Below, in pieces: positions 16,886 to 41,397 of a DNA stretch of 41,806 bases. A model generated the notes under the pieces. It was not told where the DNA came from and did not search any database. It saw nothing but the letters and a program-made list of their open reading frames with translations. Location of the stretch: positions 1 to 41,806 of the forward strand of contig JAFGEI010000123.1 in the NCBI GenBank assembly GCA_016931695.1, written 5' to 3'. How positions within the stretch are numbered: position 1 is the stretch's first letter; every line of letters begins with the position of its first letter. This DNA comes from Anaerolineae bacterium. Lineage in GTDB: Bacteria; Chloroflexota; Anaerolineae; B4-G1; DUEL01. A program made the translations under genes and the position numbers.

Positions 16886-18169
16886 TTATCCGCGATATTG
16901 CGAGGGGTTGGGTGCTTTACCCATCGACCATGCGGCCCACAGGATGCCGACCAGGGTAGCGGCAGCCAGGAGCAGGAGGGTCGAAGCCATCGCCAGGACC
17001 AGCAGGCCGAGTACGCCCATCAGGACAGTGTTGTCTACAAACCCGATGCCGACGATACCGGCCAGGGCGACGCCAAAGGCCAGGCCGTTCCAGGTGCCGT
17101 GGATGCCCGTCGCGCCCACAAAGGCGAGGAGCGTCCGCAGCGGCCGTCGTTGGACCCACAACTCTCCCCATCCCCAACCCATCAAGCCGCTCGTCGCGCA
17201 GTGCATCAACGTTGCGGCCAGCCGCATCAGCACGCCAGGCCCCCAGATCTCGGAGATGACCGCGCCGTTCATCAGGTTCTCGGCCAGGCTGAATCCGGCC
17301 CCGGATGCCACGCCAAGGAGAAAGGCCCGCGCCGGGGTAGGACGCAGCCACCGGCCAGCCAGGCCGACGCCCAGCGTTTTGGTAGCTTCTTCGATCAGGG
17401 GCGTGAGGGTGGAGACAAAGAGCAGGGCGGCGATCATCGCCGCCGGAGACAGCAGGGCGAGCAGCGCTTGCGGATCGTCGAGAATGCCCGGGTCTTGGAA
17501 TTGCTCCAGCAGTGCCTCCAGTTCCCCCATCCCGCCGGGGATCAGGCCGAGGGCGATGGCAGCGGCGACCAGGCTTGCCACTGCGGCCAGTTCCAGCACC
17601 AAGGCCAGCGAGGTGCCGAGCGACGCGCCGCCGACCAGCCCGGCGGTGACGTCCCGCAGTGTTCCCCCCCGGCCGCGCAGCAGTTTGCCCACGATGCTCA
17701 AGACCAGCAGCGGCAAAAGGATCATGACCAGGGTGTTGAGGGGTGGAAGCAAAAAATTCAGCGACAGGTCGAGGAGCGAGAGGGTAAAGCCGGCCATCAG
17801 CAGGGGGATAAAAATCAGCCACAACAGCCCCGGCCGCCGCGGGTTGAAGGGGTAGGAGGGGAGGTTCTTCCACACCCGCCAGCCGACGACGAACGATGCG
17901 CTTCCCAGACCGGTGCCGAGGACGGTCAGCGCCAACCCTTGCTGAATCGTCGGCCCGTCCAGCGCGCCGTCGCGGAGCAGGTACACAATCACCAACAGCA
18001 GCGGACTCGTGACCAGGATCAAGGCGGCGATGGTGACGCCGGCGATCGCCGCTACCAGCCCGAGGGTCTGGCGAAGAGAAGGCGAGGAGGACGGAAGGGT
18101 GACTCCCCCGCCGTCCTCCTCTAACCGGATCATCCGTTGTTCTCCGTTCTCCAGGCCCGCCCTGTTCAT
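16886..18169 (-). CDS. PrsW-family intramembrane metalloprotease
   Basis: A 427-residue polytopic protein of the PrsW/CAAX-protease-like superfamily. The family's conserved elements are in order: Glu260-Glu261 in PLIEEATK, Glu297 in SLAENLMNG, His323 in LMHCATSGLMG and His357 in GIHGTWN, each in or next to a membrane span. PrsW in Bacillus cleaves an anti-sigma factor; the substrate here is unknown. The N-terminal half (about residues 35-250) holds about six further membrane segments. The ATG at 18169 overlaps the stop of the selenoprotein gene as ATGA, so the two are one transcription unit and may act on the same envelope stress. Confidence 0.8.
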   Translation of the reverse strand: MNRAGLENGEQRMIRLEEDGGGVTLPSSSPSLRQTLGLVAAIAGVTIAALILVTSPLLLVIVYLLRDGALDGPTIQQGLALTVLGTGLGSASFVVGWRVWKNLPSYPFNPRRPGLLWLIFIPLLMAGFTLSLLDLSLNFLLPPLNTLVMILLPLLVLSIVGKLLRGRGGTLRDVTAGLVGGASLGTSLALVLELAAVASLVAAAIALGLIPGGMGELEALLEQFQDPGILDDPQALLALLSPAAMIAALLFVSTLTPLIEEATKTLGVGLAGRWLRPTPARAFLLGVASGAGFSLAENLMNGAVISEIWGPGVLMRLAATLMHCATSGLMGWGWGELWVQRRPLRTLLAFVGATGIHGTWNGLAFGVALAGIVGIGFVDNTVLMGVLGLLVLAMASTLLLLAAATLVGILWAAWSMGKAPNPSQYRG

Positions 18170-19452
18170 CGCTCCTCGATGACGATGGTCACGATGATGT
18201 CGCCGGGAGGCGCGTTGGGGTCGCCGGGATCGCGCGGAGAGATACTTTGCAGCACGTCGAACCCATCGATCACCTGGCCGATGATGGTGTAGCGACCATC
18301 CAATCCCTCCTGCGGAGCAAGCGTGATAAAGAACTGGCTGCTGCCGGTATTGCTTCCGGCGTTGGCAATGCCGATGACGCCGACGTCGGTATAGCTCAGG
18401 TTGGGATCGATCTCGTCGTCGCACTGGTAGCCTGGCCCGCCCCCTCCGGTTCCCGTCGGGTCGCCCGCCTGGACGACGAAACCGGGAATGACGCGGTGGA
18501 AAGTGACGCCGTCGTACCAGCCTTCCTGGGCCAGAAAGACAAAGCTGTTGACGTTGGCCGGGGCGCTGCTGGCGTACAGTTCGGCTACAATGTCGCCCTG
18601 CTCGGTCCGGATCGTAGCGATGTACGTTTTTTCCGGCTCGATCACCTGGGGCGGCGGGCTGGTGTATTGCCGGTCTTGGAGAAGCAGCAAGCGGATATAG
18701 GCGTCAAACCCCTGGTAGCTCAGGCCCCACTGACCGCTGGGGTACATGTAGCCGTTCATGATCAGCGTTGGGGTGCCGCCCAGTCCCATGTTCCGGGCAT
18801 CCTGATCTTGGGCTAGGACCTTTTCCTCAAAGGTGCCGTTTTCCATGTCGGCGGTAAACTGGTCGGCGTCCAGGCCCAGTTCAGCCGCGTATCCAGCCAG
18901 GATGTCGATCACCTGGTCGGCGGGCGCCCGGCTCCATTCGGACTGGCGCGCAAAGAGCGTGTCGTGCATTTCCCAGAATGCCCCTTGGGCGCCGGCCGCT
19001 TCAGCCGCCTGGGCGGCAATGCGAGATTGGGGATGGATGCTGATCAGCGGAAAGTGACGAAAGACAACGCGCAGGTTGTCGCCATGCACGTCTAACAGAC
19101 GTGCGATCGCAGGCTCGACGCCCGCGCAGCCCGGTCACTGAAAGTCCGAATACACGACGATTGTGACCGGCGCGTCGTCAGGGCCCCGGCTCCAATCGTC
19201 CTCCGTGACGGGTGGAAAGCCGTCGATCGGCTGGCCAAAGAAAGGGGCTGCCCGACAGCCCGCCAGGCTGGGTTCATTGGGGGCCGCCGTATCATTGGGG
19301 AGATTTGTGGCCTCCTCCTCCGTCGCCGACTCGGTCGGCGGCAAAGTCGGAAGGGTAATTGGGACGTTGCTCTCGGGGGTGACAGGTGAGCCGCTGCAGC
19401 CGACCAGGGCAACGAGCAAAATTCCAATCATTGGAATCCATACTTTTCGCAT
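18166..19452 (-). CDS. Selenocysteine DsbA-like/cyclophilin fusion lipoprotein
   Basis: A 428-residue protein read through an in-frame TGA at 19137-19135. Residues 1-19 form a lipoprotein signal ending in LVGC (Cys19), so it should sit on the outer face of the membrane. A Thr/Pro/Glu-rich linker follows. The DsbA-like thioredoxin domain begins near residue 90 with VTIVVYSDFQ, then the TGA-encoded residue 106, Pro107, Gly108, Cys109. This is the place of the CxxC motif in DsbA-type proteins, giving U-P-G-C. The cis-proline segment GGTPTLIMNG is at about 225-234. A cyclophilin-type peptidyl-prolyl isomerase domain fills about 277-428 (FHRVIPGFVVQAGDP, SQFFIT). Both halves are in the same frame with nothing missing. 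The start has GGAGGAGG upstream and PrsW follows by an ATGA overlap. The predicted job is disulfide chemistry plus proline isomerisation in folding of exported proteins. A nonsense mutation is the alternative, but the TGA falls precisely on a catalytic Cys. Confidence 0.85.
19086..19125 (-). promoter_or_regulatory. Candidate SECIS region of the DsbA-like selenoprotein
   Basis: Two hairpins follow the TGA. The first, 19125-19109, is GCGGGC, loop GTCGA, GCCTGC, with the loop G 16 nt after the TGA, inside the range accepted for bacterial SECIS elements. The second, 19104-19086, has a perfect 8-bp stem GCACGTCT / AGACGTGC and loop GTT, about 39 nt after the TGA. The first fits spacing rules better; the second is the stronger stem. 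Confidence 0.6.
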
Positions 19453-23689: not shown

Positions 23690-25771
23690 TCACGTCACCG
23701 GCTCCACCTGCACCGCGCAGACCTTGAACTCTGGGATGCCCGAGTCGGGGTCGAGCGCGGCGTGGGTCAGCACGTTGGCGGCGGCCTCGGCAAAGTGGAA
23801 GGGGATAAAGACAACGCCGGGCCGGATAGCGGGCGTGACGCGCACCGCCAGCTCGATCTCGCCGCGGCGGCTGGCGACCCGCACCCGTTCCGCGCCGTCG
23901 AGGCCGATCCTGGCTGCATCGTCGGGGTGCATCTCTACGTAGGCCTCGCGCACCTCCTGCGCTAGCTTTTCGGTCCGCCGGGTCATTGTGCCGGTGTGAA
24001 AGTGGAACATGAGCCGCCCGGTGGTCAGGGTGAAGGGATACGCTTCGTCCGGCAGCTCGGCCGCCGCCTGGGAGTGGATGGCGTGGAAGCGGCCCAAGCC
24101 GCGGCTGAACTTGCCCTTGTGCAGGTAGGGCGTGCCGGGATGGTCTGCCGTCGGCACGGGCCACTGCAGCGAACCCTCCCGTTCCAGGCGCTCGTACGAC
24201 ACCCCGCCATAGATGGGGGTCACGGGGGCAATTTCGTCCATGACCTCGGCAGGAGAGGCATAGTTCCAGGTTTCAGGTTGTAGGTTGGGAACCTGGAACC
24301 TGGAACCTGAAATCATCATCTGTGCCAGTTCGCAGATGATCTGCCAGTCGGGCTTGCTCTCGCCCAGCGGCTCCACCGCCTTTTGCACCCGCTGGACGCG
24401 CCGGTCGGTGCCGGTGAAAGTGCCATCCTTCTCGGCGAACGACGTCGCGGGCAGGACCACGTGGGCCAGCTCTGCTGTCTCGGTGAGAAAGATGTCTTGC
24501 ACGACCAGCAAGTCGAGCTGTTCCAGGCAGTGTCGCACGTGGTTGATGTCGGGATCGGAGAGCAGGGGGTTCTCGGCCATCACGTAGAGAGCGCGGACGT
24601 TCCCCTGCCCGGCCCCTTCGATCATCTCTGTCACCGTCAGCCCAACCTGGTCGTCCAATCCCGCCACGCCCCAGGCCTGTTCGAATTTCTCCTTCACCTC
24701 TGGCGCGGTGACGGCCTGGTAGCCGGGGTAGACGTTGGGCAGCCCGCCCAGGTCGCACGCGCCCTGGACGTTGTTCTGCCCGCGCAGGGGATTGACGCCG
24801 CCGCCGGCGATGCCGACGTTGCCGGTGAGCATGGACAGGTTGGCGCACGACTTGACGTTGTCGGTCCCCGTCGTGTGCTGGGTGATGCCCATGGCGTAGA
24901 GGATCGCCGCTGGCTTGTGCTGCGCATAGAGCCGCGCCGCTGCCCGCAGGTCGTCCGCCGGGATGCCGCTGATTTCCTCCACCTTTTCCGGCGGATATGT
25001 CATCACCACCTGGCGTAGTTCCTCGTACCCCTCGGTCCGCTCCTGGACGAACGACGCGTCTTGCAGCCCCTCGGCGATGATGACGTGCATCAGGCCGTTG
25101 AGCCAGGCGACGTTGGTGCCCGGACGAGGGCAGAGGTAGAGGTCGGCCAGGCGGGCCATCTGGGTCTGGCGCGGATCGACCACGATGACCTTGGCCCCGC
25201 GCTGCTGGGCTTCCATCACGTGGCTGGCGACGAGCGGATGGGCCTCGGTGGTGTTGGAGCCGATGATGAGGAAGCAGTTTGTGTGCGCGCTGAACTCGGG
25301 CACCGAGTTGGTCATTGCCCCACTGCCGAAGGCGGCGGCCAGACCGGCCACCGTGGGGGCGTGTCAGAGACGGGCGCAGTGATCGATGTTGTTGGTGCGG
25401 ACGATGGTGCGGGCGAGTTTTTGCAGCAAATAGTTCTCTTCGTTGGTGCACTTGGCCGAAGCAAGAAAGCCGATGCTCTGCGGGCCGGATGCGGCGTAAA
25501 TGGCGCCCATCCGCTCCGCTACCAGCTGCAGCGCCTCGTCCCACGAGGCCTCGCGGAACCCCTCTCCCTGGCGGACGAGCGGCGTCGCCAGCCGGTCGGG
25601 GTGCCTGACGAACGACGCAACGTTCCAGCCCTTGATGCACAGGCTGCCCCGGCTGATCGGATGCTGGGGGTCAGGGAAAACCCCCACGATTTCGCCGTCC
25701 AGCACCTGGAGGTTGATCGCGCAGCCGCAGCCGCAATAGATACAGGTGGTCCGTACGTTCTCGTATTGCAT
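23690..25771 (-). CDS. fdhA: Selenocysteine formate dehydrogenase catalytic subunit
   Basis: A 693-residue molybdopterin oxidoreductase that oxidises formate (or reduces CO2). An N-terminal [4Fe-4S] site uses Cys10, Cys13, Cys17 and Cys45 (CIYCGCGC, SLCIKG). The in-frame TGA at 25366-25364 is residue 136 in NNIDHCARL-U-HAPTVAGL, the exact position of the Mo/W-ligating selenocysteine (Sec140 in E. coli FdhF). Molybdopterin-binding motifs follow (GSNTTEAHP, GGGVNPLRGQNNVQGACD). The C-terminal dinucleotide-binding domain has LTTGRLMFHFHTGTMTRR. A GTG one codon upstream is an alternative start. Downstream are hypA and mobA; upstream are a FlxC-like Fe-S protein, MvhD and HdrABC, pointing to a formate-coupled Hdr complex. 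Residues SGSRFQVPNLQPETW near 485 are encoded by a palindromic insert. Confidence 0.92.
24264..24305. repeat. Palindromic insert inside fdhA
   Basis: TTCCAGGTTTCAGGTT (24264-24279) and AACCTGGAACCTGGAA (24290-24305) pair over 16 bp with one mismatch around a 10-nt loop. The segment is translated in frame and adds about 15 residues in a surface region of FdhA. Confidence 0.65.
25334..25352 (-). promoter_or_regulatory. SECIS element of fdhA
   Basis: Reading from the TGA: 11 nt, then GGTGGCC, loop GGTCT, GGCCGCC. The loop G is 19 nt after the TGA. The GGTCT loop is the same as in the E. coli fdhF element, the site bound by SelB. Confidence 0.8.
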
Positions 25772-25795
25772 CACTCGTGCTCCTTCCCGCGCCGT

Positions 25796-26614
25796 TTACA
25801 GCAATTGATCCTGGCCATGCACCATCCCATCTGCCAGCGTCAGCGAGAGGGGCGGGGCGGCGGCAATGTCGGCCCCCGGTTCATAGCCCAGCAGCTCGCC
25901 AATGTCCCGCCGCATCAGGTCGTAGAGCACCGTCAGCGGGATGTGCGCCGGGCAGACCAGCTCGCATTGGCGGCAGGCGACACAGCGGGACGCCATGTGC
26001 ATGGCCCGGACGAGATGGAACATTGGGAACGGCGGCGCCAACATTCCCGCTTCGACCCACAGCGGGTCTTCGAGCGCGCAGGCTTCACAAAAACATTCCG
26101 GGCAGATATTGCGGCAGCCGTAGCACTTGATGCACTTGGCAAACTGCTGCTGCCAGAAAGCGCGCCGCTCTGCCAGCGACATTTCCTCATATTGGGCGAC
26201 GAGGGGGTTCGGCGGCGCGCCCGCCACCGGCACACCCACGACCATCGCCTGGGGCCAGCCGGCGGTGTCCGGCGCCGGAGCGGCGCAGTAACATTCCGCC
26301 GCCTGCTCGGCGCTGCAAGTAAATCCCACCAGGTACAGGCGCTCCGGGTCGATCTGGTTCCGTTTCGCCATCTCGACCAGGGCGCGTGCGTCGCAGCCGC
26401 GGGCCACGACGCCAAAGCGCGCCTCGGGGTAGCGTTTTTGCAACATGGAGACGACGGAGGGCAGCGGATAACGGGGTTCCAGCACCAGCTGGGAAAGGTC
26501 GTCGCCCTCCCGGAAGAGATAGGGGGCCGTTCCCACCGCCGTTTGTCGCAGCGCAACGACCCCGGCCAATTCCGGCAGCTTTTCTGCTACGAGCTTGCAT
26601 ATTTGTTCGCGCAT
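25796..26614 (-). CDS. FlxC-like [4Fe-4S] protein of the formate-Hdr module
   Basis: A 272-residue Fe-S protein. The C-terminal half carries CIKCYGCRNICPECFCEAC, here a run of closely spaced cysteines near residue 165, and a ferredoxin motif CVACRQCELVCPAHIP near 220. The N-terminal half has VVARGCDARALVEM, also seen as VVVKPCDSRTINVL in the FlxC-like protein at 40504-41364, so the two are paralogs. The ATG at 26614 has GGAG 6 nt upstream and is preferred over a GTG 12 nt earlier. It sits between mvhD and fdhA and probably carries electrons between formate dehydrogenase and MvhD/HdrA. Confidence 0.78.
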   Translation of the reverse strand: MREQICKLVAEKLPELAGVVALRQTAVGTAPYLFREGDDLSQLVLEPRYPLPSVVSMLQKRYPEARFGVVARGCDARALVEMAKRNQIDPERLYLVGFTCSAEQAAECYCAAPAPDTAGWPQAMVVGVPVAGAPPNPLVAQYEEMSLAERRAFWQQQFAKCIKCYGCRNICPECFCEACALEDPLWVEAGMLAPPFPMFHLVRAMHMASRCVACRQCELVCPAHIPLTVLYDLMRRDIGELLGYEPGADIAAAPPLSLTLADGMVHGQDQLL

Positions 26615-26626
26615 CCTCAACTCCAC

Positions 26627-27043
26627 TTACCAGCCATCCTCTGCCAGCGGGCCCAGCGCCCGTACCGCCTCGACGAATTCTTGGGTTACCTGGGCAAACC
26701 TGGGCGCCTCGGCCGACGAGACCCAGTCCAGGCGGAAGCGGTCGGGGTGGATGCCCACGTAGCTGAGCAGGTTGTGCAACAGGGGCATGCGCTTGATGGT
26801 GCGGTGGTTGCCGCTGATATAGTGGCAGTCGCCGATGTGGCAGCCCAAAACCAACACCCCGTCCGCTCCGGAGCGAAAAGCGCGCAGCACCATCTCTGGC
26901 GACACCCGTCCCGAGCACATCACCCGGATTGGCAGCACGTTGGCCGGGGAAGGCATGCGCGCGACCCCGGCGTTGTCCGCCCCGGCGTAGGAACACCAGT
27001 TGCACAGGAAGGCGACGATTTTAGGTTCGAAAGTGTCGGTCAT
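26627..27043 (-). CDS. mvhD: MvhD-type [2Fe-2S] electron-transfer subunit 1
   Basis: A 138-residue MvhD/FlxD family protein, which binds one [2Fe-2S] cluster and links an electron donor to HdrA. Conserved cysteines occur in FLCNWCSYAGAD, RVMCSGRV and VLGCHIGDCHY. The start has GAGGT 4 nt upstream. It directly precedes the FlxC-like gene and follows a four-helix-bundle gene that separates it from hdrA. A close paralog lies at 34931-35356. Confidence 0.9.
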   Translation of the reverse strand: MTDTFEPKIVAFLCNWCSYAGADNAGVARMPSPANVLPIRVMCSGRVSPEMVLRAFRSGADGVLVLGCHIGDCHYISGNHRTIKRMPLLHNLLSYVGIHPDRFRLDWVSSAEAPRFAQVTQEFVEAVRALGPLAEDGW

Positions 27044-27051
27044 AGATACCT

Positions 27052-27088
27052 CGTATGTTGCGTATTGCGTATTGCGTAGCGCGTATTA
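27052..27088. repeat. TACGCAATACG-type repeat B
   Basis: CGTATGTTG, CGTATTGCG twice and GCGTATTA in tandem, between mvhD and the four-helix-bundle gene. The TAA stop of that gene is the last bases of the repeat. Confidence 0.65.
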
Positions 27089-27586
27089 GGTCATTGGTAC
27101 GTCAATGAGCAAGCCGGCCAGTCTTGCGTTGCTATCATCCAGCGAATAGGAAGGGACCACCTGGTAAGTGATGTCCCCTTCGGCTGCCTTGAAACCCCGC
27201 TCGCTAGGGATGATGGTCAAGAGCAAGCGAATGATGTTGGTCAACAGATCGAGGCGGTGCGTGAGAACAGGGGAAGGCAGGACATGACGCCCTTGATAAT
27301 ACCACGTGCGAGCCTCGCGCGCGGAGCCCAAGGCATACTCGTAGAACCGGGCCTGATCTCTGCGAGAGCGCCGGCTGTACCCTTCAGCAATGTTCGCACC
27401 GATAGATCCAAGAGCCCGGTATAGCTGATCCGCCAGACTGCGAGTTCGCTGATCCTGCATCAACCTGGAGACATCATTCCATCCCAAATCGCCCGCAAAG
27501 AGAGCCAGGCGATACACCTTCATACGCCATAACGGATCAGCGGTCAGCTCTGCCGGAACACTTTGTAGCCACTCTTCGTAGTTCAT
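27086..27586 (-). CDS. Four-helix-bundle protein (S23/IVP family)
   Basis: A 166-residue protein of the 23S-rRNA intervening-sequence/four-helix-bundle family. Signatures are VYRLALFAGDLGW, SLADQLYRALGSIGANIAEGY and FYEYALGSAREARTWYYQG, including the highly conserved S-I-G-A-N-I-A-E-G. The family function is not established; members turn up in genomic islands and next to repeats. It interrupts an otherwise conserved mvhD-hdrA order and is flanked on both sides by TACGCAATACG-type repeats, which suggests it arrived as an insertion. ATG 27586 has GAGGT upstream. Confidence 0.85.
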   Translation of the reverse strand: MNYEEWLQSVPAELTADPLWRMKVYRLALFAGDLGWNDVSRLMQDQRTRSLADQLYRALGSIGANIAEGYSRRSRRDQARFYEYALGSAREARTWYYQGRHVLPSPVLTHRLDLLTNIIRLLLTIIPSERGFKAAEGDITYQVVPSYSLDDSNARLAGLLIDVPMT

Positions 27587-27598
27587 CCCGCTACCTCT

Positions 27599-27670
27599 AT
27601 GCAATACGAAATACGCAATACGCACTACGGAATACACTTACTACGTATTGCGTATTGCGTAGTGTGTATC
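27599..27670. repeat. TACGCAATACG-type palindromic repeat C
   Basis: GCAATACGAAATACGCAATACG faces CGTATTGCGTATTGCGTAG across a short loop (arms given as 20 nt or less: ATACGCAATACG and CGTATTGCGTATT). The right arm encodes the last residues of HdrA (HYAIRNT) and its TAG stop. Confidence 0.75.
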
Positions 27671-29638
27671 TTGTACTGTGGCAAACTCTTGCAACAGTCC
27701 ATCGATCTGCGCCACAATCTCCTGGTCGGTAAAGTGCAGCGCGGTGATGGCGCCCGACGGGCAGGTAGCGACGCAGGTGCCGCAGCCCATGCAGAGAGCG
27801 GCATTGACCTCGGCCTTGCCGTCGGCGTTGCGGGCGATGGCGCCGTAGGGACAGGTCAGGATGCACTCGCCGCAGCCGACGCACTGCGCGGCGTCCACCA
27901 CGGCGACGGTGGGGGAGATGGTCACTTCGCCCTGGTTGAACAGGCGCACCACCTCCAGCGCCGCCGCTCCCGCGTGGGCGACCGTATCCGGCACGTCCCG
28001 CGGCCCCTGGCAGCAGCCGGCCAAAAAGACCCCTGCCGTGGCGGTCCCCACCGGCTGCAGCTTGGGGTGCGCCTCGGCGAACCAGCCGTCGGGCGTGCGG
28101 CCCAGGCCGCAGAGAAACGCGACCCGGCTGGCGTCAGGCTGGGGCTCGACGGCCGAGGCCAGGATTACCAGGTCGACGTCGACCGCGACCAACCGTCCCA
28201 GGTCCGCGTCCTCGCCCTTGACCCGCAGCTTGCCGTCCGCCAGCACCTCCACCTCGGCCCCGCGGCCGCGCACAAAGGTGATCCCTTCTTCTTGCACGCG
28301 CTCGTAGAACTCTTCGTAGGCCTTGCCAAAGGCGCGCATGTCCATGTAGAAATCATAGACCTCGGCGCCGGTCTTGTCGTGGACCTGGTGGGCGTGCTTG
28401 AGCGAGTACATGCAGCAAAAGCGGGAGCAGTATTCGTGCGCGTGGTGGTCCCGGCTGCCGATGCAGTGGAGGATTGCCACTCGCTTGGGTTTCTCTCCAT
28501 CGGCGGTGACGATCTCGCCGCCGGTGGCGCCAGTGGCGCTGCTCAGCCGCTCGAACTGCAGCCCAGTGATGATGTTGGGCGAGAGGCCGTAGGAATACTG
28601 CGGCAGCAGGGTGGGGTCCCACATGGCAAAGCCTGTGGCGACGACAATGGCGCCCACGGCCACGTCGAGCAGCTTGTCCTGCTGCTCATAGTCGATAGCG
28701 CCGGTGGGACAGGTTTTCTCGCACAGTTTGCACTTGCCCCTGGTGAAAAAGGTACAGTTTTCGCGGTCGATCACCGGGATGTTGGGGATGGCCTGGGAGA
28801 AGGGGGTATAGATTGCCTTGCGCTGGCCCATGCCGGCCCCGAAGGCAGTGTCGAGCACTTTTTTGGGGCACTTTTCCTGGCACAGGCCGCAGCCGGTGCA
28901 GAGGTCCGCGTTTACCGACCGCGCCCGCTGGCGGATGCGGACGGCAAAGTTGCCCACGTATCCCGAGATTTCTTCGACCTCGCTGTAGGTCAGGAGGGTG
29001 ATGTTGGGATGCCGACCGGCATCCATCATTTTTGGCCCGAGAATTCATATACTACAGTCGAGGGTGGGAAAGGTCTTGTCGAGCTGGGCCATGCGCCCGC
29101 CGATGGACGGTTCGCGTTCGACCAGGTAGACCGGGTAGCCGGCGTCGGCGATAGAGAGGGCGGCCTGGATGCCGGCGATGCCCCCGCCGACGATCAATGC
29201 GGCCTGCTCCACCGGCTCGCGGCGCGCTTCCAGCGGCTGGTGGTGGGCCACCCGCGCCACCGCCGCGCGTACCAGGCGCTGGGCCTTGTCCGTGCCCGCT
29301 TCACTGTCGCGCACCGCCCAGGAGACGTGCTCGCGGATGTTGGCCATCTCGAAAAAGTAGGGGTTGAGCCCGGCGCCTGCCAGCGCGCGGCGAAAGGTCG
29401 GCTCGTGCATGCGCGGCGTGCAGGAGGCGACGACGACGCGGTTGATGCCGTGCTCGCGGATGTCCTGCTGGATCATCTCCTGCCCCGGCTCGGAGCACAT
29501 GTACTTGTACTGGCGGGAGACGACCACGTGGGGCAGCGCCGCCGCCATCTCGACCACCGCCGGTACGTCGACCGTGGCCGAGATGTTGATGCCGCACTCG
29601 CAGATATAGACACCGATTCGAGGTTCGTCACTTTTCAT
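27641..29638 (-). CDS. hdrA: Selenocysteine HdrA, copy 1 (flavin subunit of heterodisulfide reductase)
   Basis: A 665-residue HdrA read through an in-frame TGA at 29047-29045. HdrA carries the bifurcating FAD. The N-terminal domain has YICECG and [10 protein letters not shown], then the FAD motif [18 protein letters not shown] and [25 protein letters not shown] with Sec198. In Cys-type homologs this site reads LDCSAC. Four [4Fe-4S] motifs follow: [11 protein letters not shown] (about 247), CKLCEKTC (about 303), CVGCGEC (about 586) and CMGCGTC (about 616). Sec in HdrA is known from methanogens and some bacteria. It lies upstream of mvhD and fdhA and downstream of hdrB and hdrC, the order of a formate-linked Hdr complex. 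The last residues are encoded by repeat C. Confidence 0.92.
29008..29023 (-). promoter_or_regulatory. SECIS element of hdrA copy 1
   Basis: GATGCC, loop GGTC, GGCATC, with the loop 28-31 nt after the TGA. The identical hairpin occurs at the same distance in the second hdrA. Confidence 0.75.
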
Positions 29639-29668
29639 ACGTCACCGTCTCCTCAACGACCAGGCAAG

Positions 29669-29724
29669 TACGCACCACGAAACGCGCACTACGTGTCACG
29701 TGTTGCGTGGTGCGCGTTGTGTAT
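29669..29724. repeat. TACGCACC/GGTGCGCG palindromic repeat D
   Basis: ACGCACCACGAAACGCGCAC faces GTTGCGTGGTGCGCGTTGTG. It lies between hdrA and hdrB; the HdrB stop and its last dozen residues (HNAHHATRDT) are inside it. A diverged relative of repeats A to C. Confidence 0.65.
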
Positions 29725-30579
29725 CTTTTCCAGCACCGGCCGCGCTGGCGTGACCAGCCGCCGCAGGCCCAATTTCTCTTCCGGCAGCCCAAACGCCAAC
29801 CCCATCAACTGGGGCAGGAATAGCACCGGGATGCGCACGGGTTTGCCCAAAGCGCCAGAGACCTTGTCCTGGTAGCTGTCCAGGTTAACGTGGCACATTG
29901 GGCAGACGACGGCGATACAATCGGCCGGGAGGGCCGCCTCCAACACCGCCCCCGCCATAGACAATCCCACTTTCTGCTTGGTCATCACCAGCGACGTGCC
30001 GCAACAGGAGGCCTCGCGGGCGTGCCGGTGGACCGTCGCTCCCAGTGCCTCCAGCAGAGCGATCATCGATGTCGGGCGTTGATCGTCGTCAAAGGGGCTG
30101 AACGGGCGCACAGTCTGGCATCCATAATAGGGCGCAACGGTCAAACCCTCCAGCGGGCGCTGAACTTTTTCTTTGATGGCCTCCAGTTCGATGTCGTTTG
30201 CCAGGACGTCCATCAGGTGACGTGGCCGGATTGTACCGTGATAGGTCAATCCCTCCACCTCCAATGCCTGGTTGATCGTCTGCAATCTTTTGGGATCAGC
30301 GGCGGCCTCCACAGTACGACAAAAGTTGGTGTAGCAGGCACTGCATACGGTGAGCAGATCCCGTCCATCGGCGATCTGTTCGGCCAGGGCCAGATTGCGG
30401 GCGGGCATCACCGCGCCCAGGAGGTCGCTCATCACCGCGGCGACGCTGGCCCCGCAGCAGGTCCAATCCTCCAACTCTTCCAACTCCACGCCCAAGGCCT
30501 CCAACACCGCCAGCGTCGAGTGGAGATACTCGAGCGCCGTTCCTTCTTGAGAGCAGCCGGGATAGAACGTGTATTTCAT
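29689..30579 (-). CDS. hdrB: Heterodisulfide reductase subunit B
   Basis: A 296-residue HdrB with two CCG domains, which hold the non-cubane [4Fe-4S] clusters that reduce disulfides. The first is Cys9 (FYPGCS), CC at 41-42 (WTCCGAS) and CSAC near 79. The second is YGCQT, ASCCGTS and CPMCHVN. The first copy matches the family (CX31-38CCX33-34CXXC). The start has GGAGGGACGG upstream and the gene overlaps hdrC by 4 nt. The last dozen residues come from repeat D and are not family sequence. Catalysis would take place on whatever disulfide docks with HdrB. Confidence 0.92.
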   Translation of the reverse strand: MKYTFYPGCSQEGTALEYLHSTLAVLEALGVELEELEDWTCCGASVAAVMSDLLGAVMPARNLALAEQIADGRDLLTVCSACYTNFCRTVEAAADPKRLQTINQALEVEGLTYHGTIRPRHLMDVLANDIELEAIKEKVQRPLEGLTVAPYYGCQTVRPFSPFDDDQRPTSMIALLEALGATVHRHAREASCCGTSLVMTKQKVGLSMAGAVLEAALPADCIAVVCPMCHVNLDSYQDKVSGALGKPVRIPVLFLPQLMGLAFGLPEEKLGLRRLVTPARPVLEKIHNAHHATRDT

Positions 30580-31142
30580 TTCCGTCCCTCCAGCTCGGCC
30601 ACCCGTTCAAAGAGGCGGTCGAGGCGCCCCTTGCCAAAGGTAGGCAGCTCCAGTTTGACCTTGCCACGCAAGAAGAGAATGGGCCCCAGCTTGATATAGC
30701 CCAGCGCGCCCAGCGGATTGGAGCTTAGGATAAAGCGCATCATGAACTCCATCTCGCGCATGCGCCCATAGTGGCGCATGACGTAGGCAAAGGAGCGGTA
30801 AAAGGCTGCGCTCGCCCGCGAGCGGACCAGCCCGCGCTCCATCGCCATCTCCTTGAGCCGGGTGATCGTCTCGGTGAGCGGAATCCCACGCGGACAACGC
30901 ACCTGGCACTGGTAGCAGAGGCTGCACAGCCACATGGTCTTGGAGTGCATGATCTCGTCGACCAGGCCCAGGTTGACCATGCGCCACATCCGCCGTGGGC
31001 TGACATCCATTGCGTGGGCGGCAGGACAAGAAGCGGAGCACGTACCGCACTGGATGCAGGAGAGCATCTCCTCCCAGCGTCCCGGCGTCACCTGCTGGGC
31101 CAGGGAACGATCGAGGGTTGTCAGATCAAGTACGTCAGCCAT
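30576..31142 (-). CDS. hdrC: Heterodisulfide reductase subunit C
   Basis: A 188-residue HdrC, the Fe-S subunit passing electrons from HdrA to HdrB. Two [4Fe-4S] motifs: CIQCGTCSASCPAAH (about residue 29) and CSLCYQCQVRCPRG (about 73). The C-terminal part is helical with a weakly hydrophobic stretch near residue 140. Start ATG follows GAGGT. The 71-bp gap to the lipoate-ligase stop upstream shows nothing recognisable. Confidence 0.92.
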   Translation of the reverse strand: MADVLDLTTLDRSLAQQVTPGRWEEMLSCIQCGTCSASCPAAHAMDVSPRRMWRMVNLGLVDEIMHSKTMWLCSLCYQCQVRCPRGIPLTETITRLKEMAMERGLVRSRASAAFYRSFAYVMRHYGRMREMEFMMRFILSSNPLGALGYIKLGPILFLRGKVKLELPTFGKGRLDRLFERVAELEGRK

Positions 31143-31213
31143 AAGCTATACCTCTTGGTGCGCTACACTTGACCGCGCCGCGGCCGCAGCGACCGGAACG
31201 CGCTGAGGGTCGT

Positions 31214-32251
31214 TTATCCAACCACCTGGGCAAAATCGGCCGGGGTCACGCCCGGGCTCTCGACTGCCTGCTCGGCGTAAAAGCGGGCGGCGGTTTCTTC
31301 GACCTGGTCGATCCGTTTCCCCGCCAACGCCGCTTCCAGGTCGCGCAGTGCCTCGGCCGGGAAGAAGAAAAAGTCGCCCGAGATCTCGACGTGGCGGATG
31401 ACCTTTTCCTCCACCTCGATTGTGGCGCGGATCAGGCCGCCGGGCGCCTTGTGCATCTTGTGCCGCACCTCGACGCCCTCGCGGACCTTGACCGTTCGGC
31501 CCGCGCCGGGACGACCGCGGCGGAGCAGCCACTCGTCGGAGAGGAACTGGGGCGCCAGCTCGTCCGCCTTGGCCCGCCACGCTGCGTCCACCGTCCGCTG
31601 TTCCTCCATCGGTCCGAGCAGGGCGGCAAATTTGTCCGCCATCAGCGTCCACAGATCCTCCGTCGGCGGCACGTCCGCGACCTCCCGCTTGATCGTCGAC
31701 AGGTTTTCATAGATCGTCTTGTAGACCTTGTCGCGGAATTTCTCGTCGGGCACCTTGAGCACGCGGGCCATCATTTCGTAGTCAAAGTCGACGATCAGGT
31801 TGCCGACAAAAATGATATAGTCGCCGATCTCGGCCACGCCGGTGCCCGAGACCTTGCGGTTGTTGGCGACAATGTCGTTAACCGGCTTGTATTCGGCCGG
31901 GATGCCCAGCGCGCGGTAGGCCTCGATGGGGGGTTGGAGGAAGCGGCGGTAAAAGGCCTCTTTGCCGGTGGGGACCAGCGGGTTCTCCTTGTGGATGACC
32001 AACTGCCAGAACAACTGCTGGCCGTCGAGATAGACGCCGCCGCCGCCGACCTCGCGGCGAAAGACGGGGATGCCCGCCTCGCGGCAAAAGGGCAGGTCCA
32101 CCTCCTGCTCGGCGTCCTGAAAGTAGCCGAGGCAGACGTAGGGCGAAGCCGGCGAGAGCAGGATCAGCCCTTCCCGGTCCAGCCGCGGCAGGGCGTGGTA
32201 GAGCAGTTGCGAATCTTGCCATGTGACGGTTTCGAGTCGGTAAAGTTTCAT
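31214..32251 (-). CDS. lplA: Lipoate-protein ligase
   Basis: A 345-residue LplA-type ligase that activates lipoate or octanoate with ATP and attaches it to a lysine of a carrier protein. Motifs: RREVGGGGVYLD (family RRxxGGGxVYHD), FWQLVIHK, KVSGTGVAEIGD with the lysine that contacts the adenylate, and a C-terminal accessory domain (about residues 255-345). ATG 32251 follows AAAGGTAG; the longer N-terminal extension has no family similarity. It lies inside the Hdr cluster, 2.2 kb from a gene for a GcvH-like lipoyl protein, which is its likely acceptor. Similar pairs occur in the sHdr sulfur-oxidation system. Confidence 0.9.
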   Translation of the reverse strand: MKLYRLETVTWQDSQLLYHALPRLDREGLILLSPASPYVCLGYFQDAEQEVDLPFCREAGIPVFRREVGGGGVYLDGQQLFWQLVIHKENPLVPTGKEAFYRRFLQPPIEAYRALGIPAEYKPVNDIVANNRKVSGTGVAEIGDYIIFVGNLIVDFDYEMMARVLKVPDEKFRDKVYKTIYENLSTIKREVADVPPTEDLWTLMADKFAALLGPMEEQRTVDAAWRAKADELAPQFLSDEWLLRRGRPGAGRTVKVREGVEVRHKMHKAPGGLIRATIEVEEKVIRHVEISGDFFFFPAEALRDLEAALAGKRIDQVEETAARFYAEQAVESPGVTPADFAQVVG

Positions 32252-32265
32252 TGTTCTACCTTTAG

Positions 32266-33474
32266 CTACTCTTCCATCTGCCGCGCGACGAACTCGACCA
32301 GGTCCATCGTGCGGACGCGGACCTTTTCCTGGCGAGCGGCTCCGGCCAGCGTGCGCACGCACTGCTGGCAGGCGGAGAGCAGGTACTTGGCCTCGACCGC
32401 CGCCGCCTGCGCGATGCGGTTCTTGCCCACCGCCGCCGACAGTTCCTTGTCGGCCATCTCCACGTCGCCGCCGCCGCCGCAGCAGAGAGAGTATTCGTGG
32501 TGATGCTCCATCTCGACGAAATTGACCCCCGGAATCGCCCGGATGACGTTGCGCGGCGCGTCATAGATGCCGCTGGTCCGCCCCAGGTCGCAGGGATCGT
32601 GATAGGTCACTGTCTCTTCCAGCGGCTTGAAGGTCAGTCGGTCGACGATCTGCGCCAGCAGCTCGGTGGCGTGGAGGACCTCAAAGCCCAGCGGCTCGCC
32701 CAGCAGGTGCGGGTACTCGTCCTTCCAGGTGTGGTAGCAAGAGGGGCAGGTAGCGACCAGTTGCCTGGCGCCGGTTCGCCGCACCGCCTCGACGTTGTGG
32801 CGGGCCATCTCTGCCGTCGCGTCTCCCATCCCGGCGATGGTCAGCGGAAAGCCGCAGCACCATTCCTTCCCGCCCAGGGTCATGTAATCGACCCCGGCTC
32901 GTTCCATCACCTTGACCAGGCTCTGCGGGATCGAGTAGGACTGGGGGTAGAAAGAAGAGACGCAGCCGACGAAATAGACCGTCTCCGCCTGCGTTTTTCC
33001 GCCCACGCCGGCGGGAATCTCGGGCAGGTTCTGGCTCCAGATCAGGCGGTTCTCGTTATCGTCCCCCGAAATGTTATAGTGGGCGGCCAGCGTCTGGCGC
33101 AGGTGGTCCAGCGCCGGGGGATAGACGCCCCGGTCGACCAGTTCCGCGCGCATGGCGATCCACATGTCCCGCGTGCGGATGTGGACCGGGCAGACGATGG
33201 CGCAGCGCCCGCAGAGGGTGCAGTCGTAGGTGCCGAGGGAGTGGCCCTCCAGCGCCGCCGGGTCGGGCTCGCGGGCGCCAAAGAGGCGCGCCAGCAGCCC
33301 CCGCTCGCGACGGACAAAGCGGCGCACTGTTTCGATCTTGCGCAGAGGAGTGATCGCGTCCAGTTCGGATTTGGCCTCAAAGGTGGGGCACCAGGTCACG
33401 CACTCGCCGCAGCGCGTGCACGCGTCCAGTTCCATCAACTGCTGGAAGGTATATCGAAGCTCGGGGCTAGACAT
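32266..33474 (-). CDS. HdrD-like (Fe-S)-binding protein with two CCG domains
   Basis: A 402-residue protein combining HdrC- and HdrB-type parts, as in HdrD and related oxidoreductase subunits. N-terminal [4Fe-4S] motifs are CTRCGECVTWCP (about 19) and CTLCGRCAIVCP (about 86). Two CCG domains follow: VGCVSS, EWCCGFP, CPSC and DPCDLGR, LCCGGGG, CQQC. The start has AAAGGAGG and the stop lies 14 nt before lplA. It overlaps by 8 nt the upstream gene for a haem membrane protein, an HdrE-like partner. Together they would move electrons between quinol and a disulfide or another thiol carrier. Confidence 0.85.
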   Translation of the reverse strand: MSSPELRYTFQQLMELDACTRCGECVTWCPTFEAKSELDAITPLRKIETVRRFVRRERGLLARLFGAREPDPAALEGHSLGTYDCTLCGRCAIVCPVHIRTRDMWIAMRAELVDRGVYPPALDHLRQTLAAHYNISGDDNENRLIWSQNLPEIPAGVGGKTQAETVYFVGCVSSFYPQSYSIPQSLVKVMERAGVDYMTLGGKEWCCGFPLTIAGMGDATAEMARHNVEAVRRTGARQLVATCPSCYHTWKDEYPHLLGEPLGFEVLHATELLAQIVDRLTFKPLEETVTYHDPCDLGRTSGIYDAPRNVIRAIPGVNFVEMEHHHEYSLCCGGGGDVEMADKELSAAVGKNRIAQAAAVEAKYLLSACQQCVRTLAGAARQEKVRVRTMDLVEFVARQMEE

Positions 33475-34300
33475 GGGCGCCTCCTTTCGCCGTGCCGTGG
33501 GCTGTCTCGGCTTGAAAGTGGTTCACCGTCGCCGACAACCCGCCGGCAATGACGTGCATGAACTTGGAGTAGGGAATCGTGACAATGACCAGCGAGGTCA
33601 AGATGCCGTGGCCCACGTACAGCCACTCGACCAGCAGGTCCCACGGCAGCGGCAGGCCGGCAAACAGGCGCGCCAGCGGATAGCCGACGAAGGACAGGTA
33701 GAGCAGCCCCTCGGCGTGGCTGGAGTTGAGGCGGACGATCTCGGCGATCCAACCAGAGAGCAGGATCAGCCCCAATCCAATGACCATCCAGTTGTCCATA
33801 GGGCCGGTGCGCAGTTGGGAGGTGCGGGAAAAGTAGCGGCGGATGACGAAAAAGAGAAAACCGGCCGTCATCATCACCCCGCCCACTTCGTTCAAGATCG
33901 CCGTGACCGGGTGATCGGCGGTGTACCACATCGAGACCCAGGGGATGTGTCCCAGGTGAAAGACGTGGTACAACACCTTGTCGGCAATTGCGGCGATGCC
34001 CGACATGGACATCAACAGCATAAAGCCGGTGAGCAGCAAAAAGTGGCTCAACCAGCGCCAGCGGTTGGTCTGCCACAGGCGGCGGTTGAACCAGGCTTCG
34101 GTGACGAAGGATTTGACCAAGCGGGGCAGTTGGGCGCTAAAGATGGTCGCCAGCGTCGTTTGGAGCAGCGCGCCCACCTTGCTGCGTCCCGCTCCTTCCA
34201 CCCGCCCCCGCAGCCAGACGCCGATGACGTCGGCCATTCCCAGCAGGAAGAGCCCCATGAGCGGCAGGTGAATGAGCCAAAAAATGTTCTCTGCGTTCAT
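33467..34300 (-). CDS. HdrE/NarI-like b-type cytochrome membrane subunit
   Basis: A 277-residue membrane protein with about six hydrophobic segments, similar to the gamma subunit of respiratory nitrate reductase and to HdrE. Histidines suited to haem ligation lie in WLSHFLLLTGF (about residue 86), YTADHPV and WLYVGHGIL. It is encoded with an 8-nt overlap before the HdrD-like gene, the arrangement of HdrED, DsrMK and TmcBC-type quinone-interacting modules. It should anchor the complex to the membrane and exchange electrons with menaquinone. GGAGAGGTGA precedes the start. Confidence 0.8.
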   Translation of the reverse strand: MNAENIFWLIHLPLMGLFLLGMADVIGVWLRGRVEGAGRSKVGALLQTTLATIFSAQLPRLVKSFVTEAWFNRRLWQTNRWRWLSHFLLLTGFMLLMSMSGIAAIADKVLYHVFHLGHIPWVSMWYTADHPVTAILNEVGGVMMTAGFLFFVIRRYFSRTSQLRTGPMDNWMVIGLGLILLSGWIAEIVRLNSSHAEGLLYLSFVGYPLARLFAGLPLPWDLLVEWLYVGHGILTSLVIVTIPYSKFMHVIAGGLSATVNHFQAETAHGTAKGGAHV

Positions 34301-34350
34301 TACGATAACTCACCTCTCCAAGATTTGGCACACAAAAACGACCCTGCTGA

Positions 34351-34440
34351 AGAGACAAGGGGACAAGGCAATATGGAGACACAGTGACAGGCTGTTAGTA
34401 TTGTCGCCTTGTCTCCCTGTCACCTTGTTTTCTTGTCTCT
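34351..34440. repeat. Palindromic repeat E (GACAAGG/CCTTGTC type)
   Basis: AGAGACAAGG at the left end faces CTTGTCTCT at the right, with inner pairs GTGACAGG and CCTGTCAC. It fills the middle of the 188-bp gap between the GcvH-like and HdrE-like genes. No promoter or coding signal is visible in the gap. Confidence 0.6.
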
Positions 34441-34488
34441 CAGTAGAGTCGAAAATAGTCAGGGATTCAGAAGGCGCATGGGTCCGAT

Positions 34489-34920
34489 CTAGCCAATCAG
34501 GTCCTTGAACTTTTCCGCCTCGCCCTCGATAAATTCCTTGAATTCTGGCGAGTCGGCTTTCCACAGGTTGTCCAGTTCACCCGCGTCGGTCATTTCGATC
34601 TTGACCAGCCAGCCGTCTTCAAAGGGCGACTCGTTGATGATGTTGGGTTCCCATTCCAGTTCCTCGTTGACCTCGAGCAGCTTGCCGCTGACCATGGCTG
34701 GCACGCGGCCGACCCACTTGCCCGACTCCATGGACATAAAGGTCTGCCCCTGTTCCAGGTCGCGCCCCACGGGCGGGCTCTCGACAAACACGATCTCCTG
34801 GGCAATCTTTTGCCCAAAGTCGGTCAGGCCCTGCACGACGACGTTGCCCTCCACGCGGGCCCAGTTGTGCAGCTTGTCGTAGTAGAGATTGTCCGGGAAT
34901 TCGATGCCAGCGATATTCAT
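34489..34920 (-). CDS. GcvH-like lipoyl-carrier protein
   Basis: A 143-residue protein of the glycine-cleavage H fold. The lipoyl lysine is Lys68 in SMESGKWVGRV, in the hairpin of the barrel-sandwich domain. Residues before and after (LYYDKLHNWARVEG, SGKLLEVNEELE, GWLVKIE) match the H-protein pattern. No glycine-cleavage genes are present; it lies between mvhD and an HdrDE-like pair, and a lipoate ligase gene is 2 kb away. This context matches the lipoate-binding proteins (LbpA) of sHdr systems better than glycine catabolism. AGGAGG precedes the start. Confidence 0.85.
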   Translation of the reverse strand: MNIAGIEFPDNLYYDKLHNWARVEGNVVVQGLTDFGQKIAQEIVFVESPPVGRDLEQGQTFMSMESGKWVGRVPAMVSGKLLEVNEELEWEPNIINESPFEDGWLVKIEMTDAGELDNLWKADSPEFKEFIEGEAEKFKDLIG

Positions 34921-34930
34921 GTCATACCTC

Positions 34931-35356
34931 CTAGAACTTTGATTGGTTCTTCCACACCGTCTCCATTGGGGGCAGCCCGCGCAGCGCCTCGGTAAACTCG
35001 CGCACGGTCTGGGCGAACAGCTCCCCCTCCGAAGACGAAACCCATTTTACCACAAAACGCTCCGGTTCGATACCTGTGAACGAGAGCAGCGCCTGCAGCA
35101 CCGGCATGCGGCGCGCGGTGCGGTGGTTGCCCGTGGCATAGTGGCAATCGCCGATGTGACAGCCTAGCACCATCACCCCGTCGGCCCCTTCGCGGAAAGT
35201 GCGGATGACCAGTTCCGGCGCCACCCGCCCCGAACAGGGGACGCGAATGATCTTGATGTTGGGCGGGTATTTAAACCGCGAGGCTCCTGCCAGGTCCGCT
35301 CCGGCATAGCTGCACCAGTTACAGAGAAAACCGACGATTTTGGGTTCGTAGGTCAT
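34931..35356 (-). CDS. mvhD: MvhD/FlxD-type [2Fe-2S] electron-transfer subunit 2
   Basis: A 141-residue paralog of the MvhD at 26627-27043. Conserved cysteines are in FLCNWCSYAGAD, RVPCSGRV and VLGCHIGDCHY. It lies 10 nt upstream of the GcvH-like gene and, across a repeat-filled gap of 407 bp, downstream of the second hdrA. It is the likely FlxD, joining FlxABC to HdrA. The start has a G-run about 4 nt upstream. Confidence 0.88.
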   Translation of the reverse strand: MTYEPKIVGFLCNWCSYAGADLAGASRFKYPPNIKIIRVPCSGRVAPELVIRTFREGADGVMVLGCHIGDCHYATGNHRTARRMPVLQALLSFTGIEPERFVVKWVSSSEGELFAQTVREFTEALRGLPPMETVWKNQSKF

Positions 35357-35428
35357 AATTCCCCCATTAATCTCGAGTTTGGCACTTTTGTCACTTGCCT
35401 GAGTGCAAACATCAGCTATATGTCATTC

Positions 35429-35579
35429 GGGTGCGTTTCATTTCGGTTGCGGAGAGACTTTGGAAGTCTTCATCTTCAGCCAGGACTTGGCAAAAGCGAC
35501 TTGAAATCACCTCAAAAGCCGTTGGATAGAGTATTTTTGAGACTTCCGAAGTCTTGTCTAACTTGTTTGAAACACACCC
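35429..35579. repeat. Inverted-repeat element with GACTTCCGAAGTC core
   Basis: GGGTGCGTTTCA (35429-35440) and TGAAACACACCC (35568-35579) are 12-bp terminal inverted repeats with one mismatch. Each side holds a small palindrome, AGACTTTGGAAGTCTT near 35455 and GAGACTTCCGAAGTCTT near 35540. It has no coding capacity and abuts the truncated copy 2 of the MITE-like element. Together the two fill the gap 35357-35763. Confidence 0.6.
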
Positions 35580-35580
35580 A

Positions 35581-35747
35581 TGTCATTCTGAGGAGCCCAA
35601 AGGGCGACGAAGAATCTCGTTTTGGGCATAACAGCGTGTTTTCTAGAGAAAAACGAGATTCTTCGCCCTGATATGGTCTATCATGAGTGATGACCAAAAA
35701 AGCCGGGCTCAGAATGACATATCAAAACCATGTTGAAAAGGTACTAG
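35581..35747. mobile_element. MITE-like inverted-repeat element, copy 2, one end lost
   Basis: Reverse-oriented copy of 3717-3929. TTGAAAAGGTACTAG is intact at 35733-35747, and the inner GTCATTCTGAG / CTCAGAATGAC pair and the AAGAATCTCG hairpin are nearly identical to copy 1. The other terminal repeat and about 35 bp are missing and are replaced by the end of the adjacent inverted-repeat element. Confidence 0.72.
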
Positions 35748-35763
35748 ACCGTATTGGCCTTGT

Positions 35764-37734: not shown

Positions 37735-38666
37735 CCGTCCTCTCCTCCGAACAGGAACGCCTCGATCTCTTGCAGCCGTTCGACTCCCTTGACCTCGTAG
37801 GGCAGGGATGGCATCTGGATCAGGGTCGCCCGCTCTCCATACTCCTCGCGCAACATCTGGACGTAGGGTTGCTGCATCTCCATCCGCTGGCGGTGAAAAT
37901 CGCAGTCCGGCTGGGCAATGACGCCGTTGACGACGATGTGGCGGACGTCCAGCCCGTGCTGGGCCAGCTCGCTGATCACCCGCCGGCTCTGATAGACCCC
38001 CAGCGCCTCGGGAATCGTAACCAGGATAAACTCGACATTGTCCGGGTCGCTGAAAAAGTCGATCACCTGCCGTGCCAGCTCTGTCCAGCCGGCAATGATC
38101 TCGGTGAAGGGGGTCTTGGACAGGTTGAACGTATCCCGCACCTCCAGGTAGACGCGCGGGGCGAGGCGCAGGTGCTCCAGGAAGCGCTGCGGCAGGCCCA
38201 GCAGCCGCAGCGTGTCGCCGGCGGGCGCGGTATCCCAGACAATCATCTGATAATCCTTGTGGATGCGCTCCAGGATATAGTCGAGCATGAACTCTTCCTG
38301 GATGCCCGGGGCCATGGCCACGTAATCGACCACCTCGTCGTAGGGCATGTCGATCATCGCCGACAGCGCCTCATAGACCTCGGGGCCAAATTTCTTTTTC
38401 CAGCGCCGCATCACTTCGTCGGGGTCGATCTCGAGGGCAAAGAGATTTTCCACCCCCGCCACGGGCGTCTCCTGGCAGCCGATCTCGGTCTCAAAGATGT
38501 CCGACAGCGAGGGGGTCAGGTCGCTGGAGATGATCAACGTCCGCCGCCCCTGTCGGGCATAGTGGAGCGCCGTGCCGGCCGAGGAAGTGGTCTTGCCGAC
38601 CCCGCCCTTGCCGCCGAACATGAGCACGCGCTTGTTGGTTTGGTCTAGGGAAGCTAGAGAATTCAA
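37731..38666 (-). CDS. ArsA/Get3-like P-loop ATPase
   Basis: A 311-residue ATPase of the ArsA/Get3 (SIMIBI) class. The deviant Walker A is FGGKGGVGKTT (about residues 17-27). The switch region is IVWDTAPAGDTLRLLGLP, where the family has D-T-A-P-T-G-H-T-L-R-L. The N-terminal part SSDLTPSLSDIF also matches. No arsenite efflux genes are nearby. It is translationally coupled to hdrA on one side and starts with TTG directly after the flxA stop. A role in assembling or inserting a cofactor or membrane-bound partner of the complex is possible but unproven. Confidence 0.8.
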   Translation of the reverse strand: MNSLASLDQTNKRVLMFGGKGGVGKTTSSAGTALHYARQGRRTLIISSDLTPSLSDIFETEIGCQETPVAGVENLFALEIDPDEVMRRWKKKFGPEVYEALSAMIDMPYDEVVDYVAMAPGIQEEFMLDYILERIHKDYQMIVWDTAPAGDTLRLLGLPQRFLEHLRLAPRVYLEVRDTFNLSKTPFTEIIAGWTELARQVIDFFSDPDNVEFILVTIPEALGVYQSRRVISELAQHGLDVRHIVVNGVIAQPDCDFHRQRMEMQQPYVQMLREEYGERATLIQMPSLPYEVKGVERLQEIEAFLFGGEDG

Positions 38667-41364: not shown

Positions 41365-41397
41365 CTGCTTTCTCCCTGCTGCCAACTGTAGACCTGG

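Follow-up and report, generated by a model that had tools for sequence, protein, structure and literature searches.

A predicted selenocysteine lipoprotein joining a DsbA-like domain to a cyclophilin in the Anaerolineae

DsbA-like proteins with selenocysteine (Sec, U) in the first position of a DsbA-type CxxC motif have a published record reaching back at least to 2006 (PMC1794560), and the accessible parts of genome and metagenome surveys describe them (pfam01323, UxxC) with both Sec and Cys homologs (PMC2398784, PMC1794560, PMC9312934). The fusions named in those parts are with Prx, Prx-like, UGSC-containing protein and SelD, none of them with a cyclophilin. A second described relative is NF041057, the Rcas_1661 family, which appears as a 'DsbG-like protein' with a UxxC motif in the accessible part of a 2026 review (PMC13188914). 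Here we analyse a gene of an Anaerolineae bacterium (assembly GCA_016931695.1, contig JAFGEI010000123.1), located on the minus strand at 18166..19452 of the 41,806-nucleotide (nt) stretch that we call the window, whose product would be a Sec-containing lipoprotein carrying a U-P-G-C DsbA-like domain and a cyclophilin on one chain. The Sec reading is strongly supported by the exchange of Sec and Cys among homologs, the open frames past the TGA, a covarying hairpin that tracks the TGA, the Sec machinery of the genome and other Sec genes in the window, and on this comparative evidence we consider it nearly certain that the gene encodes a selenoprotein. A first-pass annotation of the window had stated that Sec DsbA-like proteins were already reported from surveys, in agreement with the papers above, and had proposed this one as new; the proposal stands for the cyclophilin fusion and its spread in the class, undescribed in the literature covered, and needs qualifying in so far as the related Sec lipoprotein family NF041057 is known. 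No report of a Sec DsbA-cyclophilin fusion was recognised in the open-access literature, most subscription papers and preprints lying outside this coverage.

The frame runs from 19452 to 18166 and contains a single internal TGA at 19137-19135, which is codon 106, in the local context YSDFQ-U-PGCAG; the other TGA is the terminal stop (18168-18166). GGAGG lies directly 5' of the ATG, and with the TGA read as Sec the product has 428 residues. A signal peptide with the lipobox LVGC (residues 16-19; 19396..19452) was recognised by eye and predicts a lipidated Cys19. The lipobox column holds Cys in 104 of the 111 aligned homologs of the same architecture, the window gene included; the remaining seven are L081 (L, G and C numbers are our handles for loci, genomes and contigs), two Sec rows truncated by a contig edge and four Cys forms. 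The DsbA-like domain covers residues 84-249 (18706..19203; Pfam Thioredoxin_4 PF13462, 80.7 bits against a cut-off of 23.2) and contains the Sec codon, the putative resolving Cys109 of the UxxC motif (19126..19128) and Thr227-Pro228 (18769..18774), the loop of the cis-Pro, whose cis form is taken from the family. The cyclophilin-type peptidyl-prolyl isomerase domain follows at residues 280-411 (18220..18615; Pfam Pro_isomerase PF00160, 134.4 bits, cut-off 21.7). Both the single frame broken by the TGA only and the presence of lipobox, DsbA-like domain and cyclophilin on one chain, as first proposed, were thus confirmed. Purifying selection acts on both sides of the TGA: compared with homolog L063, nonsynonymous divergence (dN) is well below synonymous divergence (dS) upstream of the TGA (0.31 and 1.13), downstream of it (0.29 and 1.06) and in the linker with the cyclophilin (0.19 and 0.75).

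The homolog search covered 400 genomes from the phylum and 396 from the class. Among the matches listed, full-length fusions come from the class alone, and those outside the class start at residue 238 or later, and are therefore cyclophilin alone. In the class scan 147 of the 396 genomes matched at an E value of 1e-62 or better, two of them among the matches listed (G515 and G498) by the cyclophilin only. We fetched every TGA-bearing fusion among the matches listed (55 loci in 54 genomes) together with a selection of other forms, leaving the cyclophilin-only locus L062 out of the 111-row alignment. Codon 106 is TGA in 55 of these rows, TGC or TGT in 37 and another codon in 19 (S 9, D 4, A 3, T 2, E 1), counts that are not natural frequencies because the homologs lacking TGA were fetched by selection. 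This agrees with the earlier proposal that the TGA replaces the first, attacking cysteine of the CxxC motif, and with the suggestion that homologs should carry U or C at this position, to which the 19 rows with other residues add a third group.

All 55 Sec (U) forms stay open for 302-333 codons past the TGA, and they end in TAG (22), TAA (19) or TGA (14). When the columns around codon 106 are left out of the tree, the U label needs nine changes, eight of them forced by well-supported branches; Sec and Cys forms repeatedly interchange on the tree. P107, C109, R132, H133, P135, L136, T227 and P228 are invariant in the U forms (55/55), and Cys109 is also present in 36 of the 37 Cys forms and 14 of the 19 others. 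Among the 47 of 80 loci looked at for their source, the Sec-form relatives L131, L133, L134, L137, L139, L144, L152, L157 and L162 are metagenome-assembled, and Bellilinea caldifistulae (L146) has a Cys form. The search found no relatives in viral contigs.

We then consider the selenocysteine insertion sequence (SECIS), for which the published constraints on bacterial elements (bSECIS) were coded in this analysis with the minimum stem set to 5. The hairpin with G first in its loop that the first-pass annotation had placed at a suitable distance is present at 19086..19104 (minus strand), GCACGUCU-GUU-AGACGUGC, and satisfies these constraints: its stem is 7, its energy -10.0 kcal/mol, and its spacing from the UGA, counting the 5-nt loop UGUUA, is 37 nt, at their upper limit. 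By the same constraints bSECIS-like hairpins occur in 40 of 55 U forms, 4 of 37 Cys forms and 0 of 19 others, while synonymous-codon resampling of the U set (40 rounds) gave a mean of 3.6 and a maximum of 9. Three placements can be told apart. At spacing 37, with loops such as UGGUA or UGUUA, a stem of at least 5 is found in 39/55 U versus 2/37 Cys forms; spacing 23 accounts for 11 more U forms; spacing 16-17 is seen, for example, in L114 and L117. In the first placement (36 sequences) 94.4% of cells are paired, five of eight pairs vary on both sides, and sliding the partner strand drops pairing to 28-61%; in the second (11 sequences) the figures are 92.2% and four of seven pairs. The same columns in 23 Cys forms are 47.8% paired, equal to shuffles. 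As the rows were picked for possessing the stem, the percentages are inflated, and more weight attaches to how varied the compensating pairs are. Combining the placements, with geometries fixed after seeing the data, the hairpin is found in 52 of 55 U versus 4 of 56 non-U rows. When pairs that are independent on the tree are compared, it accompanies U in an average of 6.8 of 8, with the reverse seen in about 0 (median p 0.016, range 0.008-0.22).

A second, UGA-proximal hairpin (19108..19126) is predicted by folding only. Three Cys forms, L073, L084 and L085, are nested among Sec forms; L073 retains six of the seven pairs of the 23-nt hairpin, and L084 and L085 retain the GGT loop. These are likely recent Sec-to-Cys changes with a decaying SECIS.

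The assembly (3.87 megabases in 236 contigs, 93% complete) also encodes the machinery for Sec, whose presence the first-pass annotation had left to be confirmed: selA (558.6 bits), selB (351.8) and selD (369.8) all score over their cut-offs, and a tRNA-Sec with anticodon TCA reaches 66.7 bits (cut-off 47). The selD match (L017, G000 contig C191) has an early in-frame TGA (TTAAG-U-AAKM), which makes the SelD of this genome another probable selenoprotein. Within the window, in-frame TGA codons (25366-25364, 29047-29045 and 37158-37156) split fdhA and two hdrA genes on the minus strand in the contexts HCARL-U-HAP (fdhA) and LDCS(I/A)-U-ILGP (the two hdrA), which we take to be usual Sec positions; the predicted fold of fdhA places a GGUCU loop 18 nt past its UGA. 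A general reassignment of TGA was rejected, given that the window gene and other genes of the window, such as fdhA and the second hdrA, terminate in TGA and that homologs have Cys at the codon. The same genome holds a second copy of the fusion (L049 2637-3704, G000 contig C11), 51% identical and also with a TGA; its hairpin lies at 23 nt rather than 37, and a gene that by eye resembles an extracytoplasmic-function (ECF) sigma factor lies nearby on the opposite strand.

How does the protein compare with its described relatives? The window protein matches the NF041057 model at 114.3 bits over its full length and 101.5 bits over residues 60-428, below the cut-off of 190. Both are thioredoxin-like (seleno)lipoproteins, and all 60 sequences of our alignment A1 match the model; the model, however, has 247 positions and the match covers residues 11-237 only, without the cyclophilin. 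Related genomes, for instance G699, G372 and G475, contain members that exceed the cut-off and have one in-frame TGA. A predicted two-domain model of residues 60-428 has a mean predicted local distance difference test (pLDDT) of 95.9. Searched whole with Foldseek it returned cyclophilins and large complexes containing them, with no DsbA-type entry among the best 50 matches listed, and for this reason the DsbA-like domain was folded and searched alone (AlphaFold, pLDDT 94.9). Its nearest solved fold is then BdbD (3eu3; Foldseek E 6.8e-10, template modelling (TM) scores 0.76/0.82), and by sequence 3gyk, corynebacterial DsbA/TsdA and BdbD are nearest. BdbD of Bacillus subtilis and the corynebacterial DsbA/TsdA/MdbA are among the nearest solved structures, but at 19-25% identity, and the matched chains as described lack a cyclophilin part. 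These proteins carry Cys rather than Sec. The cyclophilin of the window protein has R320, F325 and Q328, which we take, from their positions in cyclophilin A, to be the catalytic Arg/Phe/Gln; they are present in 45, 46 and 45 of the 55 U forms.

In the mechanism that we infer, ribosomes would read the UGA of codon 106 as Sec, guided by the in-frame SECIS hairpin about 37 nt downstream, with SelA, SelB, SelD and tRNA-Sec supplied by the same cell. The product would then be exported and, through a lipid on Cys19, anchored to the outer face of the membrane, where the DsbA-like domain would swap disulfides with client proteins, Sec106 attacking and Cys109 resolving, while the joined cyclophilin would isomerise prolines of the same clients. 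The protein would thus be a tethered two-activity folding factor, with a reductive or isomerising use fed by CcdA, this choice of direction being the weakest step. As one model of the electron supply, and by analogy only, the surface lipoproteins Etrx1/Etrx2 (PMC3914529) offer, in the part of that paper at hand, a lipid-anchored thioredoxin fold fed by CcdA; they are, however, sequence kin of the C-terminal domain of DsbD and not of DsbA, and that part mentions neither Sec nor a cyclophilin. Taken as a whole, with reductive or isomerising use held somewhat more likely than net oxidation, we regard this explanation as reasonably probable.

Several findings weigh against it. selA does not discriminate, being over the cut-off in 40 of 44 U versus 32 of 36 non-U genomes tested, so that Cys forms also occur in selA-bearing organisms, and it is absent or fragmentary in four U genomes. 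Of the 55 U forms, 15 fail the strict hairpin test, and the 57-nt fold of the window gene is unremarkable alone (z -1.38; 19 of 200 shuffles as good), which makes the hairpin evidence comparative; the choice of geometries after the fact in the combined test (52/55) and the upper end of the p range (0.22) count on the same side. Each of the three cyclophilin residues is lost in 9-10 of the 55 U forms, suggesting that the isomerase may be dead in some of them. Thr before the cis-Pro fails to separate oxidase from reductase: an argument for an isomerase built on it was dropped, since T-to-V mutants of solved DsbA (titles of 3f4s and 3hz8) show that Thr occurs in DsbA as well. The attacking residue has been lost in 19 of the 111 homologs, which retain lipobox, DsbA-like and cyclophilin parts. 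Finally, the preference for reductive use leans on the non-detection of VKOR and DsbB, which is weak evidence in assemblies 85-100% complete; other oxidative partners may exist, and across all 46 genomes tested VKOR is found in 31.

That last count also bears on a rival explanation, in which the protein is a selenoprotein whose Sec domain is a net oxidase of DsbA/BdbD type that puts disulfides into clients and is re-oxidised by some quinone reductase or a small oxidant. The nearest solved folds, all DsbA-type with BdbD first, followed by 3gyk and the thiol-disulfide oxidoreductases of Corynebacterium diphtheriae, fit this idea. Next to the 31 of 46 genomes with VKOR, 15 were found to have DsbB and 40 to have DsbD_TM, which exceeds its cut-off in 36. 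In the U genomes tested from the gene's own family, however, VKOR and DsbB were each found in 0/6, and DsbD_TM (CcdA/DsbD-type) in 5/6, the homolog of this type in the window's own genome being on contig C47 (G000); it is because of this distribution that reductive or isomerising use is favoured. Moreover, VKOR adjoins a different, stand-alone DsbA-like gene in several genomes (e.g., G208, G276, G462 and G641), so that the fusion is not the linked partner of VKOR there. We consider net oxidation rather unlikely. In a lineage where neither VKOR nor DsbB was found, the fusion adds a candidate disulfide pathway.

The 19 homologs lacking U or C at codon 106 bring in another rival, according to which the protein acts chiefly as a binding or scaffold chaperone, or as a partner of the downstream PrsW protease, and its redox site, whether Sec, Cys or missing, is an accessory. 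Keeping the whole architecture with S, D, A, T or E at 106, these homologs argue that redox chemistry is not the sole conserved role, and suggest that something beyond the redox site is conserved too. PrsW points the same way. Directly downstream of the window gene, on the same strand, lies a gene for a PrsW-family intramembrane metalloprotease (16886..18133; Pfam PF13367, 41.1 bits, cut-off 23.5), and 34 of the 59 homologous loci (of 111) with at least 1000 nt of downstream DNA have one downstream in the same orientation, including 13 of the 14 with another residue at 106 and 12 of the 22 Cys forms. Yet it is present in just 9 of the 23 U loci with enough DNA, and P107, C109, R132, H133, T227 and P228 are kept in every U form. 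Some of the 19 may also hold a relocated redox pair: Cys102, in the motif YC(D/E)F, occurs in 14 of them (L028, L033, L036 and relatives, genome family f2), and C102-C109 is perhaps such a pair. This rival appears distinctly improbable. In the second copy of the fusion, L049, no PrsW gene was found downstream.

It is hardly credible that the UGA simply ends translation, stems from a sequencing error or marks a pseudogene, leaving a 105-residue lipoprotein and a separate protein from GTG 19089: an open frame from that GTG exists mechanically, but the downstream start would drop the UxxC motif, the same TGA is common to 55 loci, 37 homologs have Cys at the codon in one open frame and both sides of it are under purifying selection, and on the shared TGA and the selection we rejected sequencing error, pseudogene and split gene alike.

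A broader joint reading is put forward tentatively. The fusion may be a class-wide envelope folding module of the Anaerolineae, a lipid-anchored Sec/Cys exchanger with a cyclophilin, often accompanied by PrsW as a quality-control unit, in which one codon would repeatedly have acquired or re-acquired Sec, and lost it, while the SECIS hairpin was rebuilt at three distances (about 37, 23 and 16-17 nt) from the same UGA. Because the family supplies the same protein dozens of times over, with Sec, with Cys or with the redox site lost, it opens two questions to testing: what advantage Sec has over Cys in an extracytoplasmic thiol-disulfide exchanger, and in what way a SECIS element originates, shifts and decays within a coding sequence.

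Some minor observations concern the protein and its surroundings. Cys66 is present in 71 of the 111 rows, each with exactly one of C344 (38) or C266 (33), and 40 rows lack all three. This looks like two alternative structural disulfides, C66-C344 and C66-C266, tying the N-terminal segment to the cyclophilin or the linker; we keep the idea as a side note because the changes counted on the tree for the three columns (4, 1 and 3) amount to few independent events. In other Anaerolineae, stand-alone DsbA-like genes adjoin VKOR, some with an in-frame TGA (e.g., G664 C3 and G519 C393), and frames of about 650-750 residues carry two or three tandem DsbA-like matches. The fdhA and hdrA genes of the window are part of an Hdr-, MvhD- and formate-dehydrogenase-type cluster (23690-41385, minus strand) with duplicated hdrA and mvhD-like genes, which also includes a lipoate ligase (31214-32362) and, recognised by eye, a GcvH-like protein (34489-34920).

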